From Neorhizobium petrolearium (GTDB lineage Bacteria > Pseudomonadota > Alphaproteobacteria > Rhizobiales > Rhizobiaceae): 64,000 bases of DNA. The notes beneath the pieces were generated by a model that saw nothing but the letters and a program-made list of their open reading frames with translations, was not told the DNA's origin and made no database searches. The position numbers and the translations under genes were made by a program. Of this stretch, positions 15,307 through 60,453 are shown piece by piece. The stretch is from assembly GCF_017873175.1 (NCBI RefSeq), contig NZ_JAGGJW010000004.1:310001-374000 (forward strand), in the 5' to 3' direction. Each line of letters opens with the position of its first letter. Position 1 is the first letter of the stretch.

Positions 15307-15648
15307 CCCGACGGCCGGCTCCTTCATTCGAAGAGGGGCTATATTGGTTCCTTACCGACCAGCCTTTTAGTTCGATGAGATCATCGGCGCCATATTGGCC
15401 GGCCTGCTTCCGATCGCGCTCAATGCCTATGACAAGGGCTGATCGCTCCACCCGGCGCAAGTGATTTGCCGCTCCTTTTGACAGGCAGCCATACAGCCGA
15501 GACACCCGGTCGGCATGGGTCTCGTCCGATTCGCAATTGAATCAAAGTGTTAAAAAAATATTAGCAACCCTCTGGACACGAAGAATCACTAGTGATTCAT
15601 TAGGTTAGATTCGGGCGAGCGGCGCCTCGAATCACACGAGGGACCACA
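15307..15648. other. Intergenic region upstream of pleC, with a short gene remnant
   Basis: This 342-base gap contains a short open piece at 15371-15441 encoding DEIIGAILAGLLPIALNAYDKG followed by a stop, without a start codon. It may be the decayed end of a lost membrane-protein gene. The right part, from 15528, is a dense regulatory region described separately. Confidence 0.3.
15528..15633 (+). promoter_or_regulatory. GANTC cluster and CtrA-like box upstream of pleC
   Basis: Six GANTC sites (the CcrM methylation target) lie within 106 bases: 15528, 15539, 15583, 15594, 15608 and 15629. The pair at 15583 and 15594 forms the perfect palindrome GAATCACTAGTGATTC. A CtrA-like box, TTAA-AAAAATA-TTAG, lies at 15550-15564 and matches seven of the eight consensus bases of TTAA-N7-TTAA. 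The cluster ends 16 bases before the pleC start codon. CcrM and CtrA control cell-cycle genes in alphaproteobacteria, so cell-cycle-timed expression is inferred. Confidence 0.65.
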
Positions 15649-17994
15649 ATGAGGACGATGTCGGGCGTGCAGCGGGCAACCGCGGCCGAGGGGCGGCTGC
15701 GTTTCAAATTTCCGAGCTTCGCAGGTTTGGGGCGCATCTCTCCGGAGGAGGTGCGGCTTTCCGTCAAGCCCATCTCGCGGCAGTTGCCGCGGGTGGAATT
15801 GGTTCTGAAGCGTTCCATCCCCCTTCTCATCGTTGCCTTCCTCTCCGTCGTCGCAGCCTCGCGCGTTCTCGGCATCGTGGCGGAATACGGGCGGATGGAA
15901 GATGCGGCCCGGCAGTCGACGGCGCTGATGGCGGCCGCGGCTCGCGCTGCCTTCTCCGGTGAACCGGCCTTTTCCAGCCGTGACCGGGCCATCGCGGAAA
16001 TGCGCCTCGGCTCCTTCCTGCCGCAGCAACAGCTGAAATCCGACACCTTCCTTCTCCTTGTCGACGAAGCCGGGCGTGTCTTTGGCGGATCGGGCGAGAT
16101 CGCGGCCTATATCGGGCGGCGCCTCACATCCGTGCTGCCGGAAACCGCTGCGTTGCGCCGTTTCGGCGGCGACGGTGTGATCGAGACCTATTTCGGGGAA
16201 ATTCCCCATTATGCAGCGATCCAGCCGCTCGGCAGCGAAGGCGCGCTCATCGTCGCAGCCCAATCGCTCGACGGCATTCATCGCTTCTGGCGGCGGGAAG
16301 TATCGCTCAACGTCACGCTTTTCACCGGCATTTCGGCGATCCTGCTCATCATCCTCTACGCCTACTACATGCAGGTCAAACGCGCCCGTGAGGCCGACGA
16401 TATCTTCGTCGAATCCAATCTGCGTATCGAAACCGCACTGTCGCGAGGCCGCTGCGGGCTTTGGGATTTCGACGTTACCAACAAGCGCCTCTTCTGGTCC
16501 GGCTCCATGTACGAGATGCTCGGCCTGCCGCCCGGCAGCAACGTCATCTCCTTTGCCGACGCAGCACGGATGATGCATCCGAGCGACGGCAATATCTGCA
16601 CGCTTGCCCGGGCCATAAGCCGCGGCAATGCCCGGCAGGTGGACCAGGTTTTTCGCATGCGCCATGCCGCGGGCCACTATGTCTGGATGCGCGCCCGCGC
16701 CCAGGTGGTGAAGACCGCCGCCGGCCGGACCCACGTCATCGGCATCGCCATGGACGTGACCGAGCAGCATCGTCTCGCCCAGCGATATGCCGAAGCCGAC
16801 CAGCGGCTTGCGGACGCGATCGAATGCACGTCGGAAGCCTTCGTTCTGTGGGATAAGAACGACCGGCTCGTGATGTGCAACACCCATTTCCAGCAGGCTT
16901 ACGGGCTGCCGGATAGCGTGCTGGTGCCGGGCACCGAACGTGCCTCCGTCAACGCGGCGGCCGCCCGGCCGGTCATCGAGCGGCGTGTCGCCGATCCGGA
17001 CGGCAGCGGCCTTTCCCGCACGACGGAAGTGCAGCTTGCCGACGAACGCTGGCTGCAGATCAACGAACGACGCACTCGTGACGGCGGCCTCGTCTCGGTC
17101 GGCACCGACATCACTCTCCTGAAGCGCCACCAAGAGCGGCTGCGCGACAGCGAGCGCCGGCTGATGGCGACGATCGGAGACCTTTCCTCTTCGCAGAAGA
17201 AGCTGGAGCGTCAGAAAGCCGAGCTTTCGATCGCCAATGCCAATTACCAGGCGGAAAAGGAACGCGCCGAGGCAGCCAACAAGGCGAAGTCCGATTTCCT
17301 CGCCAACATGTCGCATGAACTCAGAACGCCGCTCAACGCCATCCTCGGCTTTTCGGAAATCCTGATGAACGGCATGTTCGGGCCGCTCGGCTCGTCGAAA
17401 TATTCGGAATATTCCAAGGATATCTACGACAGCGGCAAGCATCTCCTGAACGTCATCAACGACATCCTCGACATGTCGAAGATCGAGGCCGGCCACATGC
17501 GCATCCAGTGCGAGGCGGTCGACCTGAAGTCGCTGATCGAAGAAAGCCTGCGTCTGACCTCCATCTCGGCTCAGGACAAGGCCATCATCATCCGCCAGCG
17601 CCTGTGCGACAGCCTCGACATGGCCGGCGACCGGCGCGCGCTGAAACAGGTGCTGCTCAACCTCCTCTCCAACGCCGTCAAGTTCACCAACGAGGGTGGC
17701 AAGGTCGAATTGCGCGCCCGCAGGCTTGAAAAGGGCACGGTGCTGACCATTGCCGATACGGGCATCGGCATCCCCAAGGAATCGCTCAGCAAGATCGGCC
17801 AGCCCTTCGAGCAGGTGCAGAGCCAGTATGCCAAGAGCAAGGGCGGTTCGGGGCTCGGGCTTGCCATCTCCCGCTCGCTGATCTCGCTCCACGGCGGCAC
17901 GATGCGCATCCGTTCCCAGGTCGGCAGGGGAACCGTGGTTTCGCTGCATATCCCCGACCGGCCGCTGCAGGCGGCACGGAAACGGTCGGCGTAA
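15649..17994 (+). CDS. pleC: PleC-like cell-cycle sensor histidine kinase/phosphatase
   Basis: A 781-residue membrane kinase. It has transmembrane helices near residues 56-76 and 220-242 with a periplasmic sensor region between. PAS-type segments follow (~255-380 and ~385-500), then a coiled coil (~500-545). The HisKA box SHELRTPLNAILGF carries the phospho-accepting His near residue 556. HATPase boxes are LLNLLSNAVKF (~670), DTGIGIP (~703) and GSGLGL (~733). The kinase core and the position next to glnE fit PleC of Sinorhizobium, as I recall it. PleC acts mainly as a phosphatase on DivK, opposing DivJ, which is also in this window. A GAGGGA ribosome site is present. Another PdhS-family kinase is the main alternative. 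Confidence 0.72.
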   Translation: MRTMSGVQRATAAEGRLRFKFPSFAGLGRISPEEVRLSVKPISRQLPRVELVLKRSIPLLIVAFLSVVAASRVLGIVAEYGRMEDAARQSTALMAAAARAAFSGEPAFSSRDRAIAEMRLGSFLPQQQLKSDTFLLLVDEAGRVFGGSGEIAAYIGRRLTSVLPETAALRRFGGDGVIETYFGEIPHYAAIQPLGSEGALIVAAQSLDGIHRFWRREVSLNVTLFTGISAILLIILYAYYMQVKRAREADDIFVESNLRIETALSRGRCGLWDFDVTNKRLFWSGSMYEMLGLPPGSNVISFADAARMMHPSDGNICTLARAISRGNARQVDQVFRMRHAAGHYVWMRARAQVVKTAAGRTHVIGIAMDVTEQHRLAQRYAEADQRLADAIECTSEAFVLWDKNDRLVMCNTHFQQAYGLPDSVLVPGTERASVNAAAARPVIERRVADPDGSGLSRTTEVQLADERWLQINERRTRDGGLVSVGTDITLLKRHQERLRDSERRLMATIGDLSSSQKKLERQKAELSIANANYQAEKERAEAANKAKSDFLANMSHELRTPLNAILGFSEILMNGMFGPLGSSKYSEYSKDIYDSGKHLLNVINDILDMSKIEAGHMRIQCEAVDLKSLIEESLRLTSISAQDKAIIIRQRLCDSLDMAGDRRALKQVLLNLLSNAVKFTNEGGKVELRARRLEKGTVLTIADTGIGIPKESLSKIGQPFEQVQSQYAKSKGGSGLGLAISRSLISLHGGTMRIRSQVGRGTVVSLHIPDRPLQAARKRSA

Positions 17995-51357: not shown

Positions 51358-51536
51358 ATCACTTTCACGGCAACATGGAACGAATCGTCCATCTCGCCCT
51401 TTACCTGTTGCGATTTGACTATCGCGCTTAAACCATTTGTCAGCTATTGCTGAATAACGGTGAGAGCTCATGCCTTTGATCCCTTCATGGGGCGGCGTCA
51501 AGCACATCTCATTGAAAACGGGCGGGGGAATCCACG

Positions 51537-53762
51537 GTGCAGGACGAGCCAAAGTCACCCGACGACAGGCCGCGCAGAAAGCGCCACTTCCTGCTGCGCA
51601 TCGATTCCTGGATCGATTCCACCGTCTGGAATCTCGGCTTCACGCTCGGCGAAATCTGGGAGGAGATCACCATCTTCTCCCGCAAATTCCGCGTCCGCGG
51701 CTTCAAACGCATCGGCTTCGAGCTCGCCGGCGAGGCGATGACGCTCGGCACCGCCGGTTTTGTCGTTCTTCTTGCGCTGGCGCAACCCGCCTTCGAGGAA
51801 ACCAAGGAAGACTGGCGAAATCGCGGCGATTTCGCCGTCACCTTCCTCGACCGCTACGGCAATACCATCGGTCACCGCGGCATCATCCATGAGGATTCCG
51901 TCCCGGTCGACGAACTGCCCGACCATCTCATCAAGGCCGTGCTCGCAACCGAAGACCGCCGCTTCTTCGACCATTTCGGCATCGATTTCATCGGGCTCAC
52001 CCGCGCGCTCAGCGAAAACGCCAAGGCAGGCGGCGTCGTGCAGGGCGGTTCGACCATCACGCAGCAGCTCGCCAAGAACCTCTTCCTCACCAACGAGCGC
52101 TCCATCGAGCGCAAGATCAAGGAAGCCTTCCTGGCGCTGTGGCTGGAGGCGAACCTGTCCAAGAAGGAAATCCTGTCGCTCTATCTCGACCGCGCCTATA
52201 TGGGCGGTGGCACGTTCGGCGCGGCCGCCGCGGCGCAATTCTATTTCGGCAAGAACATCACCGAAGTGAACCTTGCCGAATCCGCCATGCTCGCCGGCCT
52301 CTTCAAGGCACCGGCGAAATATGCGCCGCATGTCAACCTGCCGGCTGCCCGCGGCCGCGCCAACGAGGTGCTTTCCAATCTCGTCCAGAGCGGGCTTATG
52401 AGTGAAGGCCAGGTGATCGCGGCCCGCCGCAATCCGGCCACCGTGGTCGACCGGGCGGACGTCAAGGCACCCGACTATTTCCTCGACTGGGCCTTCGACG
52501 AGGTGCAGCGGCTCGCGACGGAAGGCAAGTTCCGCGAGCATTCCGTCATCGTGCGCACGACGATCGACACCGGCCTGCAGCAGGCGGCGGAATCCGCCGT
52601 GGAAACCAGCCTGCGCGAATATGGCGAAAGCTACAAGGCGAAGCAGGGCGCTCTGGTGATGATCGAGAACGGCGGGGCCGTGCGCGCCATGGTCGGCGGG
52701 CGCGACTATGGCGAGAGCCAGTTCAACCGCGCCACCCGGGCACTTCGCCAGCCGGGCTCCTCCTTCAAGCTCTATACCTATTCCACCGCCATGGAGAACG
52801 GCTTCACGCCGGAATCGGTCATCTCGGACGCACCGATCACCTGGCGCGGCTGGTCGCCCCAAAACTACGGCAGATCCTACAAGGGCAAGGTGACGCTGCT
52901 CACCGCCATGGCCCAGTCGTACAACACCGTGCCGGTCCGGCTCGCCAAGGATTATCTCGGCACGGAAGCGATCGTTGCGACCGCCAAGAAGATGGGCATC
53001 GAGACTCCGCTCAGAACCGACAAGACCATCCCGCTCGGCACGTCGGAAGTCACCGTGCTCGACCAGGCGACGGCCTATGCGGTGATGCCGGCAGGGGGCA
53101 TGCAATCACGCCGCCACGGCATCGCGCAGGTGCTCAGCTATGACGGCGATGTGCTATACGATTTCAACCGCGACGAACCGCCGGCCAGCCGCGTGCTTTC
53201 GGAACAGGCGACCTCGTCCATGAACCGCATCCTGACGCAGATCCCGGTGATCGGCACGGCCCGACGGGCGGCCCTTGACGGCGGCATCGTGACCGGCGGC
53301 AAGACCGGCACCTCGCAGAGCTACCGCGATGCCTGGTTCATCGGCTTCACCGGCAATTACACGACCGCCGTCTGGTACGGAAACGACGATTTCACGCCGA
53401 TGCACAACATGACGGGCGGCTCGCTGCCGGCCATGACCTTCAAGACGCTGATGGACTATGCCCATCAGGGCATCGAGCTCCGGGCCATACCCGGCATCCA
53501 AAACCCGCTGCCGACCGGCGGCCACAAGGGTACGGAAGTAGCAAAGAAAGATGGCGAGCCCGGCCTCGTGCTCGTTCGGCCACGCTCGCTCTCGGCCGAA
53601 TCCACCCGCATCCTCAGGCAGATCGGCGAAAACCTGAAGAAGGCCGGCCCGCTCGCGCCGGTGGGCACCAAGGTGGCCGACGCCGGGGGCGTGGTCGGTG
53701 AAACGGAACCGGCAAAGGGCGCACCGGTCATAACGCCGGTCAGCGGGGAGCTGCGGCGGTAG
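51537..53762 (+). CDS. Class A penicillin-binding protein (transglycosylase/transpeptidase)
   Basis: A 741-residue bifunctional peptidoglycan synthase. A cytoplasmic N-terminus is followed by a membrane helix (residues ~66-84). The glycosyltransferase-51 domain has [12 protein letters not shown] (catalytic Glu near 138) and [14 protein letters not shown] (~168). The transpeptidase domain has SSFK (~406), SYN (~463) and KTGTS (~589). The C-terminal tail is low-complexity. It starts at GTG 51537. The architecture is that of PbpC/PBP1-type proteins common in rhizobia; it is transcribed alone. Confidence 0.94.
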
Positions 53763-58019: not shown

Positions 58020-58934
58020 TCAAAGCGCGCCGATCGACTTGAGCTTCTTCAGCACCATCTCGTCGGGCTCACCCGTTTCCGGGAGGCGGTAGTGCTTCTG
58101 GAAACGGCGGATGGCGGCCTTGGTCTGCTCGCCGGCGACGCCATCCACCGCGACATCCGCATAGGCGATGTTCGACAGGCCGCGCTGGATCTGCAGGACG
58201 AGATCGGCCGAGGATGAAGATGCCGCCGGCTTTTGGGCGACAGGTGTTGCCCGGGGCGTCCGGGGAGTCGATCCGGTGCTGGGAATCTCGGCAGGCGGCC
58301 TCATCACGGGGCGGCGCTCCGCCGAGCGGATCGCCGCCGCCACGGGGTCCTCGTTGCGCACAGCAGCAACCTTTTCCGGCGGGCGGCTTACGGGCACCGC
58401 CTTCGACGAGGATGCCGGCCGGGCAGGCTTTGCCGGGGCTGCCTTCGCGGTTTCAATCGGAGCCGGTTTCTGAGGGGCGGGTTGCGGCGCGGCCTCCCGG
58501 GCCTCTCTCTGGATTGTTTCCGGACGCGGCGCGGGAACGGCGACCGGCAGCGGATCGGAGAGCGGCGCGGCTACCGATTCGGTCTCAGGTGCCGTTGTGG
58601 CGGGCGACGATGCGGGCGCATCCGGATCGGCGCGCTCGATGCGGAAGGTCGTCACTTCCTCGGGCGTTGCGCGGCGCACGGGCCGATAGCCGGCGATGGC
58701 ATTCGGGTCGCTGGCATCGCGGGTGGCAAGGAATGGCGCGGGATGGCCGCCCGGCTGGTACCAGAGCGCATTGGCAGCGACGAACGAGAAGACGACGATG
58801 AAGGCCGCAACGCCGATGACGGGCCTGGGATGGCGCGCAGCGGCGCGTCCCGCTGCCGAGAGGAGGCTCGACAGAAGGCCCGGCTGCTGGACAGGCTTTC
58901 TCCTGTCAGGCGATTTTCGCTTCCGCGCGGCCAT
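58020..58934 (-). CDS. Membrane-anchored peptidoglycan-binding (PG_binding_1) protein
   Basis: A 304-residue protein with a cytoplasmic basic N-terminus, a membrane helix (residues ~39-60), a long Pro/Ala-rich spacer (~85-235) and a C-terminal PG_binding_1 domain (LVLQIQRGLSNIAYADVAVDGVAGEQTKAAIRRFQKHYRLPETG). It probably spans the periplasm and binds the cell wall. It overlaps the divJ stop region by 29 bases, so it is co-expressed with that kinase; a link between cell-wall state and DivJ is an attractive but untested idea. Confidence 0.85.
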   Translation of the reverse strand: MAARKRKSPDRRKPVQQPGLLSSLLSAAGRAAARHPRPVIGVAAFIVVFSFVAANALWYQPGGHPAPFLATRDASDPNAIAGYRPVRRATPEEVTTFRIERADPDAPASSPATTAPETESVAAPLSDPLPVAVPAPRPETIQREAREAAPQPAPQKPAPIETAKAAPAKPARPASSSKAVPVSRPPEKVAAVRNEDPVAAAIRSAERRPVMRPPAEIPSTGSTPRTPRATPVAQKPAASSSSADLVLQIQRGLSNIAYADVAVDGVAGEQTKAAIRRFQKHYRLPETGEPDEMVLKKLKSIGAL

Positions 58935-60453
58935 CGATAAAATCCTGTTCGTCCATCATGAACGTTTTCTGCGACGTTAGCCGGGCTTTGCTGAGCCGCG
59001 GCGGGAATTCGACTTTCTCCTCCCGGATTTTGTCCAGTTTGCTTCCGATCCCCGACCCGTCGGCCGGCAGCGAGACGGTCACCACGGTCCCTTCGCCCGC
59101 ACGGCTGGCGATCGAAAAACGGCCGCCATGCAGCGCCACCAGGCCCTTGACCAGCGAAAGCCCGAGACCGGTCCCTTCGTAGCTTCGAGTATAGGCATTT
59201 TCAACCTGCATGAAAGGCTGGCCGATGAACTCCAGCTTCTCGGCCGCAATGCCGATGCCGGTATCGCTCACGGAAATCACCACGTCGTCACCGGCGAGCA
59301 CCGCATCGATCGAAACGGCGCCGCCGGCCTCGGTGAACTTGATGGCATTGCTTGCGAGATTGATGAGGATCTGCTGCACCGCGCGGCGGTCGGCGATCAC
59401 TTCGCCAAGGCCCCGGGAGGCGCGGCTTGCCAGCGTGATGCCTTTTTCGCGCGCCGACAGGTCGAGCATGGCGCGGCAGGCCTCCATGGCCTCGGCGAGC
59501 GCGAAGGGTTCGGCGATCAGTTCGTAGCGGCCGGCCTCGATCTTCGACATGTCGAGCATGGTGTTGACGACCGAGAGCAGATGCGCGCCCGACTGGCGGA
59601 TCAGCCCGACATATTCGCGCTGGCGATCGTTCTCGAGCCTGCCGAAATATTCGCCGGCGAGCACGTCCGAAAAACCGAGAATCGCATTGAGCGGCGTGCG
59701 CAGTTCGTGGCTGACCGCGGCGAGGAAGCGTGACTTCGCCTCATGGGCGGAGCGTGCCTCGGCGACACGGGCGACCGCTTCAGCGCGCAGGTCTTCCTCT
59801 TCCGACATGTCCCGCGCCTGCGCGAAGGCATGCACGAACTGCCCCTCGCCATCGCGAATTGCAGTCATGTCGAGCCGGACGGGCAGGAACTGTCGGCCGG
59901 CGGCCGAGAGAGGCCGCTCGATCCGGATGTCGACAACCGCACTTGCCGCCCCCTGGCGCAATGCATCGAGCGCCTGGACGAGGCCGATCCTGTCCGACAC
60001 ATGCACGCATTCGGCAAGCGGCAGGCCCGAAGCCTCGCTGAGGCCGACGGGAAAGGCGTCACGGTCGCGTCCACCCGTCTTCATGACCTGCCCCTGCGGG
60101 TCGAGGATGAGCGACAGGCCCGGGCAGGCCTCGAAAGCAATGTCCTCCGGCTGCGGGACGACGGCGGAAACAACCGCATGGCGCGGCAGGGCAAAGAGGG
60201 CCGCGACGGCCAGCAGGAAGAAAGAGATGACCAGTGCGGCGCCGACCGGCAGCGCCAGCGCGGGGGTGAAGACGAGCGTGAGCGCGGACGGCACGACAAC
60301 CAGCGTTGCGAGGCAGGCAAAGACCAGGCGGCGGAAGAGCGCAATCTCCTGCGCGCGCGCCACTTCGCCTTCGCCAAGGCGAGTGAGCCAGCGGTTCACG
60401 GTCTCATCGACCAGAAGAACCATCCTGTCGGCAATGTTACTCAATACGCGCAC
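58906..60453 (-). CDS. divJ: DivJ-like cell-cycle histidine kinase
   Basis: A 515-residue membrane kinase with two helices (residues ~43-63 and ~67-90), a PAS-like domain (~103-215), the HisKA box SHELRTPLNAILGFSDVL (His 249) and HATPase motifs (NLASNAIKF, DTGIGI, GTGLGLS). It ends in a ~60-residue charged tail. The core, and its place about 3 kb from mucR, fit rhizobial DivJ (adjacent to mucR in Sinorhizobium, as I recall). DivJ phosphorylates DivK, opposing PleC, and so controls CtrA and division. It starts at GTG 60453 behind AGGG. Confidence 0.75.
   Translation of the reverse strand: MRVLSNIADRMVLLVDETVNRWLTRLGEGEVARAQEIALFRRLVFACLATLVVVPSALTLVFTPALALPVGAALVISFFLLAVAALFALPRHAVVSAVVPQPEDIAFEACPGLSLILDPQGQVMKTGGRDRDAFPVGLSEASGLPLAECVHVSDRIGLVQALDALRQGAASAVVDIRIERPLSAAGRQFLPVRLDMTAIRDGEGQFVHAFAQARDMSEEEDLRAEAVARVAEARSAHEAKSRFLAAVSHELRTPLNAILGFSDVLAGEYFGRLENDRQREYVGLIRQSGAHLLSVVNTMLDMSKIEAGRYELIAEPFALAEAMEACRAMLDLSAREKGITLASRASRGLGEVIADRRAVQQILINLASNAIKFTEAGGAVSIDAVLAGDDVVISVSDTGIGIAAEKLEFIGQPFMQVENAYTRSYEGTGLGLSLVKGLVALHGGRFSIASRAGEGTVVTVSLPADGSGIGSKLDKIREEKVEFPPRLSKARLTSQKTFMMDEQDFIDGRAEAKIA

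Follow-up and report, generated by a model that had tools for sequence, protein, structure and literature searches.

The sigma cofactor GcrA brings RNA polymerase to methylated promoters and speeds their opening (PMC7403470), and Caulobacter pleC has been reported among the 80 loci at which efficient GcrA occupancy needs CcrM (PMC3667746). Caulobacter transcription starts that are regulated by the cell cycle and carry GANTC between the -35 and -10 elements are described as activated at 40-60 min (PMC4287350), and a mapped Caulobacter pleC promoter is mentioned in PMC7010744, a mention that comes without sequence features. PleC itself, a kinase/phosphatase, acts on DivK and hence on the activity of CtrA (PMC2877005). 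In Rhizobiales, the essentiality of CcrM is argued probably not to operate via ftsZ or mipZ, whose promoters there seldom carry GANTC (PMC3708114), and individual GANTC sites are described as not diagnostic (PMC8725594).

In the present study, we analysed the region 5' of a pleC-type gene in a window of 64 kb, that is, the whole stretch of DNA at contig positions 310001-374000 of a 6.97-Mb draft genome with close named relatives in Neorhizobium, Rhizobium and the like. The gene order at the locus is pepN, TetR, MFS, pleC, HIT, glnE, and the assignment of the kinase as PleC rests on its domains and these neighbours; its best NCBIfam match is DivJ, with a score below the cut-off. The true start of pleC may be the ATG at 15658, nine bases 3' of the start of the open reading frame, as an ATG is found there in 89/109 relatives versus 51/109 for the ATG at 15649. 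Elsewhere in the window (58906-60453, minus strand) lies a 515-aa histidine kinase, possibly DivJ. Its core is more closely related to PleC than anything else in the genome (46% identity). The features of the locus are collected in Table 1.

Table 1. Features of the pleC upstream region, in window positions; sites are numbered in the direction of pleC.
Feature	Position	Strand	Remarks
Intergenic gap, transporter (MFS) gene to pleC	15307-15648		342 bp
GANTC site 1, GATTC	15528-15532		upstream of CtrA-like box; near this offset in 36/108 core-pair relatives
GANTC site 2, GAATC	15539-15543		upstream of CtrA-like box; near this offset in 35/108
CtrA-like box, TTAA-N7-TTAG	15550-15564	+	TTAA-N7-TTAA-type; putative binding site
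-35-like CTGGACA	15572-15578	+	hexamer TGGACA at 15573-15578; putative -35 role
GANTC site 3, GAATC	15583-15587		in promoter spacer; five bases invariant in 34 sequences
GANTC site 4, GATTC	15594-15598		overlaps predicted -10; invariant in 34 sequences
Predicted -10, TTCATT	15596-15601	+	17 bp after TGGACA; predicted from spacing
GANTC site 5, GATTC	15608-15612		predicted transcription start; hairpin 5' arm; 54/108 near relatives
Predicted hairpin	15608-15633	+	expected 5' end of pleC transcript
GANTC site 6, GAATC	15629-15633		hairpin 3' arm; TGATTCG on minus strand; 84/108 relatives
Shine-Dalgarno-like GAGGG	15638-15642	+	well kept in alignments of relatives
pleC-type histidine kinase	15649-17994	+	two PAS, HisKA, HATPase_c

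The first-pass annotation had pointed to six GANTC within 106 bp (15528-15633) in front of pleC, one pair of them forming a palindrome, against a background in which GANTC is rare, and all of this is borne out. The window holds 99 GANTC versus 348.8 expected from dinucleotide shuffles, and the density is 1.50 per kb over the window plus 40 further stretches (1,293 sites in 864 kb, 12% of the genome). Six GANTC within 106 bp occurred in 0/10,000 dinucleotide shuffles of the 342-bp region, the maximum being 5, reached in 10 shuffles. When the intergenic regions of the 864-kb sample (12% of the genome) were counted and ranked, the check proposed at the outset, the pleC region came 1st of 409 with its six sites; the regions were delimited by crude gene calls, with open reading frames scored by third-position GC. 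The next regions by total have 4 GANTC (three regions of 534-1,126 bp), and the next within any 106 bp has 3. With coding sequence included, the pleC cluster is still the highest per 106 bp in the 864-kb sample, followed by stretches with 4 that are almost wholly coding. Such 4-site stretches (51528-51633 in the window and locus L161) were rejected as members of the same class, their sites being nearly all inside long open frames; in the former, three of the four sites fall within the beginning of an open frame of 741 aa, spaced by 12 and 14 much as in the pleC trio.

The pleC cluster is not alone in the genome, because the gcrA promoter is similarly dense. The 5' region of gcrA (C1:209500-212500, chosen deliberately and lying outside the sample) contains 5 GANTC in 106 bp, 4 of them in 37 bp with spacings of 10, 9 and 13, and a TTAA-N7-TTA box stands downstream of its GANTCs.

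The palindrome, GAATCACTAGTGATTC at 15583-15598, is perfect over its 16 bp and has a single mismatch-free occurrence in the 6.97-Mb genome; with up to 3 mismatches, 6 forward places were found versus 3 for the reversed control, those outside pleC carrying 2-3 mismatches. The palindrome as such is incidental, since its inner six bases differ in relatives and the two GANTCs are the part that is kept. We likewise rejected, as the main reading, that it is the operator of an unknown regulator: the inner six bases vary, and the spacing of the pair is 10, 11 or 12 bp depending on lineage.

The two GANTCs of the palindrome fall within what is predicted to be a weak sigma70-like promoter composed of TGGACA and TTCATT, with a start near 15608; a generic sigma70 scan called no promoter in the pleC upstream region. 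Compared by eye with the GcrA-type motif YGAKTCG/YGAKTCK, as quoted in PMC7987155 (according to which it was not recovered in B. subvibrioides), sites 1 (CGATTCG, plus strand) and 6 (minus strand) fit YGAKTCG and site 3 (minus strand) fits YGAKTCK; site 4, at the -10 element, matches neither.

Conservation was followed in 109 related loci, namely 29 of the same genus and the 80 best matches among genome contigs, which are non-independent and together with the query make up 89 distinct sequences. The core pair, i.e., two GANTCs spaced 10-12 bp apart, is present in 108/109 of these loci versus 2/2,726 control windows of the same loci. Among 34 divergent sequences, no variation was seen in CTGGACA, the GAATC of the spacer, TGATTC plus a T three bases beyond it, the TC within site 5 and two isolated bases, and the bases between the two core GANTCs are variable; TGGACA is kept in 107/108 core-pair relatives. 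In the pair-less locus (L075) the spacer site is missing, and TGGACA, the -10 GANTC and site 5 are still present, lying some 100 bp farther upstream. Further upstream the picture is looser, with a GANTC of whatever kind 40-90 bp before the -10 site in 80/108 core-pair relatives. Conservation of the cluster in Rhizobiaceae, proposed as a further check, thus holds for sites 3 and 4, which are near-universal, and does not hold for the cluster as a whole, as sites 1 and 2 are lineage-specific and sites 5 and 6 are part of a predicted hairpin. On this alignment evidence, two of the six are near-universal, and the other four are either confined to lineages or have another, partial explanation.

The hairpin deserves separate mention. 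Its pairing is kept in 88.3% of the cells, versus 25.7-42.5% when the partners are slid, and several changes in its arms (GGTTC, GGATC) destroy GANTC and keep G-U pairing. Sites 5 and 6 may therefore be kept partly for a reason other than GANTC; since they may serve another role, the count of six as such is weakened and the core sites become the main evidence. A proven RNA element was nonetheless rejected, as covariation was not above that of shuffles, RNAalifold retained two pairs only, the single-sequence fold was unremarkable (z -1.01), and there was no Rfam match.

A plain BLAST search with the 126-bp stretch gave matches in just 54/199 genomes of the family. The core model covers 46 positions and was built from 18 sequences. 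Across the whole of the present genome it finds pleC with E 1.3e-12 and no second convincing match (next E 1.05), gcrA not being hit, and a regulon of like promoters was rejected, the search being convincing at pleC alone; a scan of 1.73 Mb of strands of the genome for the strict pattern CT[AG]GAC, 15-17 bp, GANTC gave a single match, the one at pleC. Of the 199 family genomes, 185 give a model match with E no higher than 1, a figure that includes many weak matches without meaning; in a separate count over the same genomes, the pleC gene itself was located in 191. One family genome (G223, contig C1) has two copies of pleC, with a core-promoter match just 5' of each.

The simpler pattern T[AGT]GAC followed by GANTC at 14-18 bp is found in 109/109 near loci and, among the best-scoring loci of the family and the order, in 28/28 and 27/28, respectively, the latter set including 3 genomes of the same family (L284, L286, L287) and 3 loci (L278, L280, L298) that repeat genomes of the 13-locus set from other families described below. 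In control windows of the same loci the pattern occurs in 5/2,726, 0/387 and 2/367. Correspondingly, the GANTC pair at 10-12 bp is present in 28/28 family and 22/28 order loci versus 0/387 and 0/367 control windows. In other families the arrangement mostly reads TGGACA, then GATTC, 10 bp on GATTCAAAT (again GATTC), and 14-16 bp on GATTCGG. Most of the order-level loci shown have a -10 of TCAAAT, better than TTCATT, at about the same spacing, and GATTCG at the place of site 5. Among 13 order-level loci from other families, 9 match the pattern in the form [CT]TNGAC, and in the remaining 4, judged by eye, the -35 is variant (L194, L197, L199) or the -10 GANTC is lost (L206). Outside the near group, the middle base of the spacer site is A in 38, T in 20 and G in 5 loci (63/111 full-pattern loci, the pattern itself demanding GANTC), and the spacer GANTC shifts its place between families. 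This variation of the middle base, together with the shifting place, fits a CcrM site and not a fixed operator.

We also examined the least favourable loci, namely 20 of the 23 lowest-scoring matches of the order (two were already in the 13-locus set and one was omitted) and 16 family genomes with a core-model E of 4e-4 or more or no match (4 of the 14 no-match genomes). The automatic pattern was found in 17/20 and 11/16 of these, respectively, 9/16 of the latter at the right place (L339 and L347 are off-site). Locus L315, which falls within coding sequence and carries no information, stays in the counts. At least 2 GANTC within 50 bp are present in 18/20 of the weak order loci, 16/16 of the weak family loci, 11/13 of the other-family set and 3/5 of the class-level loci, and in 8/332 intergenic regions of the own genome, the latter under an earlier gene call that was wrong at pleC. 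By eye, family genomes L335, L339 and L341-L343 have lost the -10 GANTC and kept the spacer and start-point sites. No single site is indispensable, because the -10 site is lost in these family genomes and the spacer site in L075; the former are natural variants for tests of which site matters. Additionally, a further GANTC (GACTC) running into the -35, as GACTCTGGACA or GACTCTAGACA, was seen in the distant genomes L318, L321, L322, L330, L331, L332, L334, L337, L342, L344 and L345, giving up to four core GANTCs. At the level of the class, 6/142 genomes pass the cut, the own genome included; by eye, a similar core is present in L272 and L273 and absent from L274-L276, the automatic match in L276 being off-site.

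As to the factors that could read such a promoter, the genome has one CcrM-type gene (PF18755) and one GcrA gene (PF07750), the former product being close to Caulobacter CcrM (E 9.9e-158) and the DNA-binding domain of the latter matching Caulobacter GcrA (E 1.9e-17). CcrM and GcrA were each detected in 146/150 genomes of the order, which makes natural loss of either unusable as a test.

We consider it probable that the pleC core promoter is read by CcrM and GcrA, which would tie pleC to replication with CtrA as an extra input. RNA polymerase with the housekeeping sigma factor would recognise TGGACA and the weak -10 with its embedded GANTC; of two further GANTCs, one would sit in the spacer, roughly a turn of the helix before the -10 site, and the other, most conserved outside the family, at the predicted start point. 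Late in the cycle the core sites would be methylated by CcrM, and passage of the replication fork would leave them hemi-methylated. GcrA, as a sigma cofactor that binds methylated GANTC, would read the methylation state and help to open the weak promoter, so that pleC output would be tied to replication of the pleC locus, and CtrA at the upstream box would add a non-essential input in Rhizobiaceae. The roles of the promoter elements, the start point, methylation, the binding of GcrA and the sign of the effect are what we infer from the sequence, activation being likelier than repression. A tie to fork passage, through methylation read by GcrA, is the simplest reading. Against it stand the loss of the -10 GANTC in some family genomes and of the spacer site in L075, and the misfit of site 4 to YGAKTCG/YGAKTCK; pleC is also absent from the main text of the study of CcrM depletion in A. 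tumefaciens, so that a strong effect is undocumented there. The CcrM-dependent timing of pleC that the first-pass annotation had proposed is thereby supported in part, by conservation of the core GANTCs beyond chance and by the presence of both CcrM and GcrA genes, and the support extends to two near-universal sites of the six.

Methylation might alternatively lower activity by itself, without GcrA, full methylation hindering the polymerase and hemi-methylation after the fork releasing a burst of pleC. This is what the A. tumefaciens gcrA promoter would lead one to expect, which has 6 GANTC in 250 bp and is reported to lose activity on methylation, in E. coli as well (PMC11514494), and the similar cluster before gcrA in the own genome and the overlap of one pleC GANTC with the predicted -10 point the same way. 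Nevertheless, we judge it unlikely: methylation is a requirement for GcrA to bind at Caulobacter pleC, a point in favour of a positive role (PMC3667746), and the gcrA and pleC arrangements differ, the pleC model having no match at gcrA.

It is a still poorer bet that the conserved bases are ordinary promoter elements plus a transcript hairpin, with GANTC incidental and its methylation without effect. The location of sites 5 and 6 in the hairpin arms, where GGTTC and GGATC keep G-U pairing, and the overlap of TGATTC with the -10, where constraint is expected anyway, would both be accommodated. However, sigma70 has no need of a GANTC between -35 and -10, and still the spacer site does not vary among the 34 sequences and reappears in other families at displaced positions; GANTC is otherwise depleted in the window, and the hairpin covariation stays at the level of shuffles.

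The CtrA-like box, TTAA-N7-TTAG, is present upstream of pleC at 15550-15564 as had been annotated, within an A+T-rich stretch. TTAA-N7-TTA is kept in 90/109 near, 22/28 family and 3/16 weak family loci, and at the order level in 4/28 loci, 1/13 of those from other families and 5/20 of the lowest-scoring; in the sample of the own genome, 12/409 intergenic regions have it on one strand. CtrA of Brucella is reported to be bound to the pleC promoter (PMC2877005), and in S. meliloti CtrA was bound at pleC, yet its depletion led to no significant change of pleC (PMC4433202). Binding of CtrA at the pleC box is thus likely, whereas the CtrA-dependent timing suggested from the sequence is doubtful, the S. 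meliloti depletion speaking against it. That MucR or CtrA shields the GANTCs from CcrM, leaving a hypomethylated, occupancy-dependent switch, is very improbable, for although MucR is reported to shield promoter GANTCs in C. crescentus and S. meliloti (PMC5172544) and the stretch around the box is A+T-rich, pleC has 0 occurrences in the main text of that paper, the nearly fixed phase with -35 and -10 is left unexplained, and the order-wide core persists where the CtrA-like box is mostly absent.

If the CcrM/GcrA reading is correct, the DivJ-PleC-DivK switch would directly receive a signal of replication timing. Whether pleC senses chromosome replication is now directly testable with a few point changes in laboratory strains. 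The pleC promoter, with its order-wide GANTCs, is a concrete candidate target for the essentiality of CcrM in Rhizobiales, and its core sequence can serve as a standard for separating functional GANTC from background. Going one step further, we raise, as a tentative idea on which we would not ourselves wager, that the core is an ancestral multi-site methylation reader, its spacer, -10 and start GANTCs phased order-wide and its response graded or cooperative with the number of methylated sites. Were this so, few direct CcrM targets in the order would be as deeply conserved as pleC, and pleC could be one source of the unexplained CcrM requirement of Rhizobiales.

Control of pleC by CcrM and GcrA is not a new idea, having been published for Caulobacter (PMC3667746). 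What appears to be new here is a promoter of CcrM/GcrA type with several phased sites and an unusual depth of conservation, and the earlier statement that a dense cluster at pleC was undescribed agrees with the open-licence main texts searched, where neither the cluster nor the order-wide core was found. The nearest counterpart is Caulobacter pleC itself (PMC3667746), which is the same gene and whose GcrA occupancy depends on GANTC methylation; a multi-site core and the count or spacing of GANTC are not given in that account. The gcrA promoter PG of A. tumefaciens (PMC11514494) is likewise dense, belongs to a cell-cycle gene of Rhizobiaceae and is methylation-sensitive, and the gcrA cluster of the own genome matches it. 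It differs from pleC in gene and arrangement; methylation lowers its activity, and the pleC model misses the own-genome gcrA. The MucR-shielded promoters of S. meliloti and Caulobacter (PMC5172544) are cell-cycle promoters with GANTCs too, the mechanism described there being occlusion from CcrM. Finally, Caulobacter ftsZ, mipZ and ctrA P1 (PMC3708114, PMC4287350) likewise carry GANTC near the core promoter and are reported to depend on methylation for their activity, but ftsZ and mipZ do so through a conserved CGACTC motif and ctrA P1 through a GANTC at about -29, whereas pleC has two or three phased sites.
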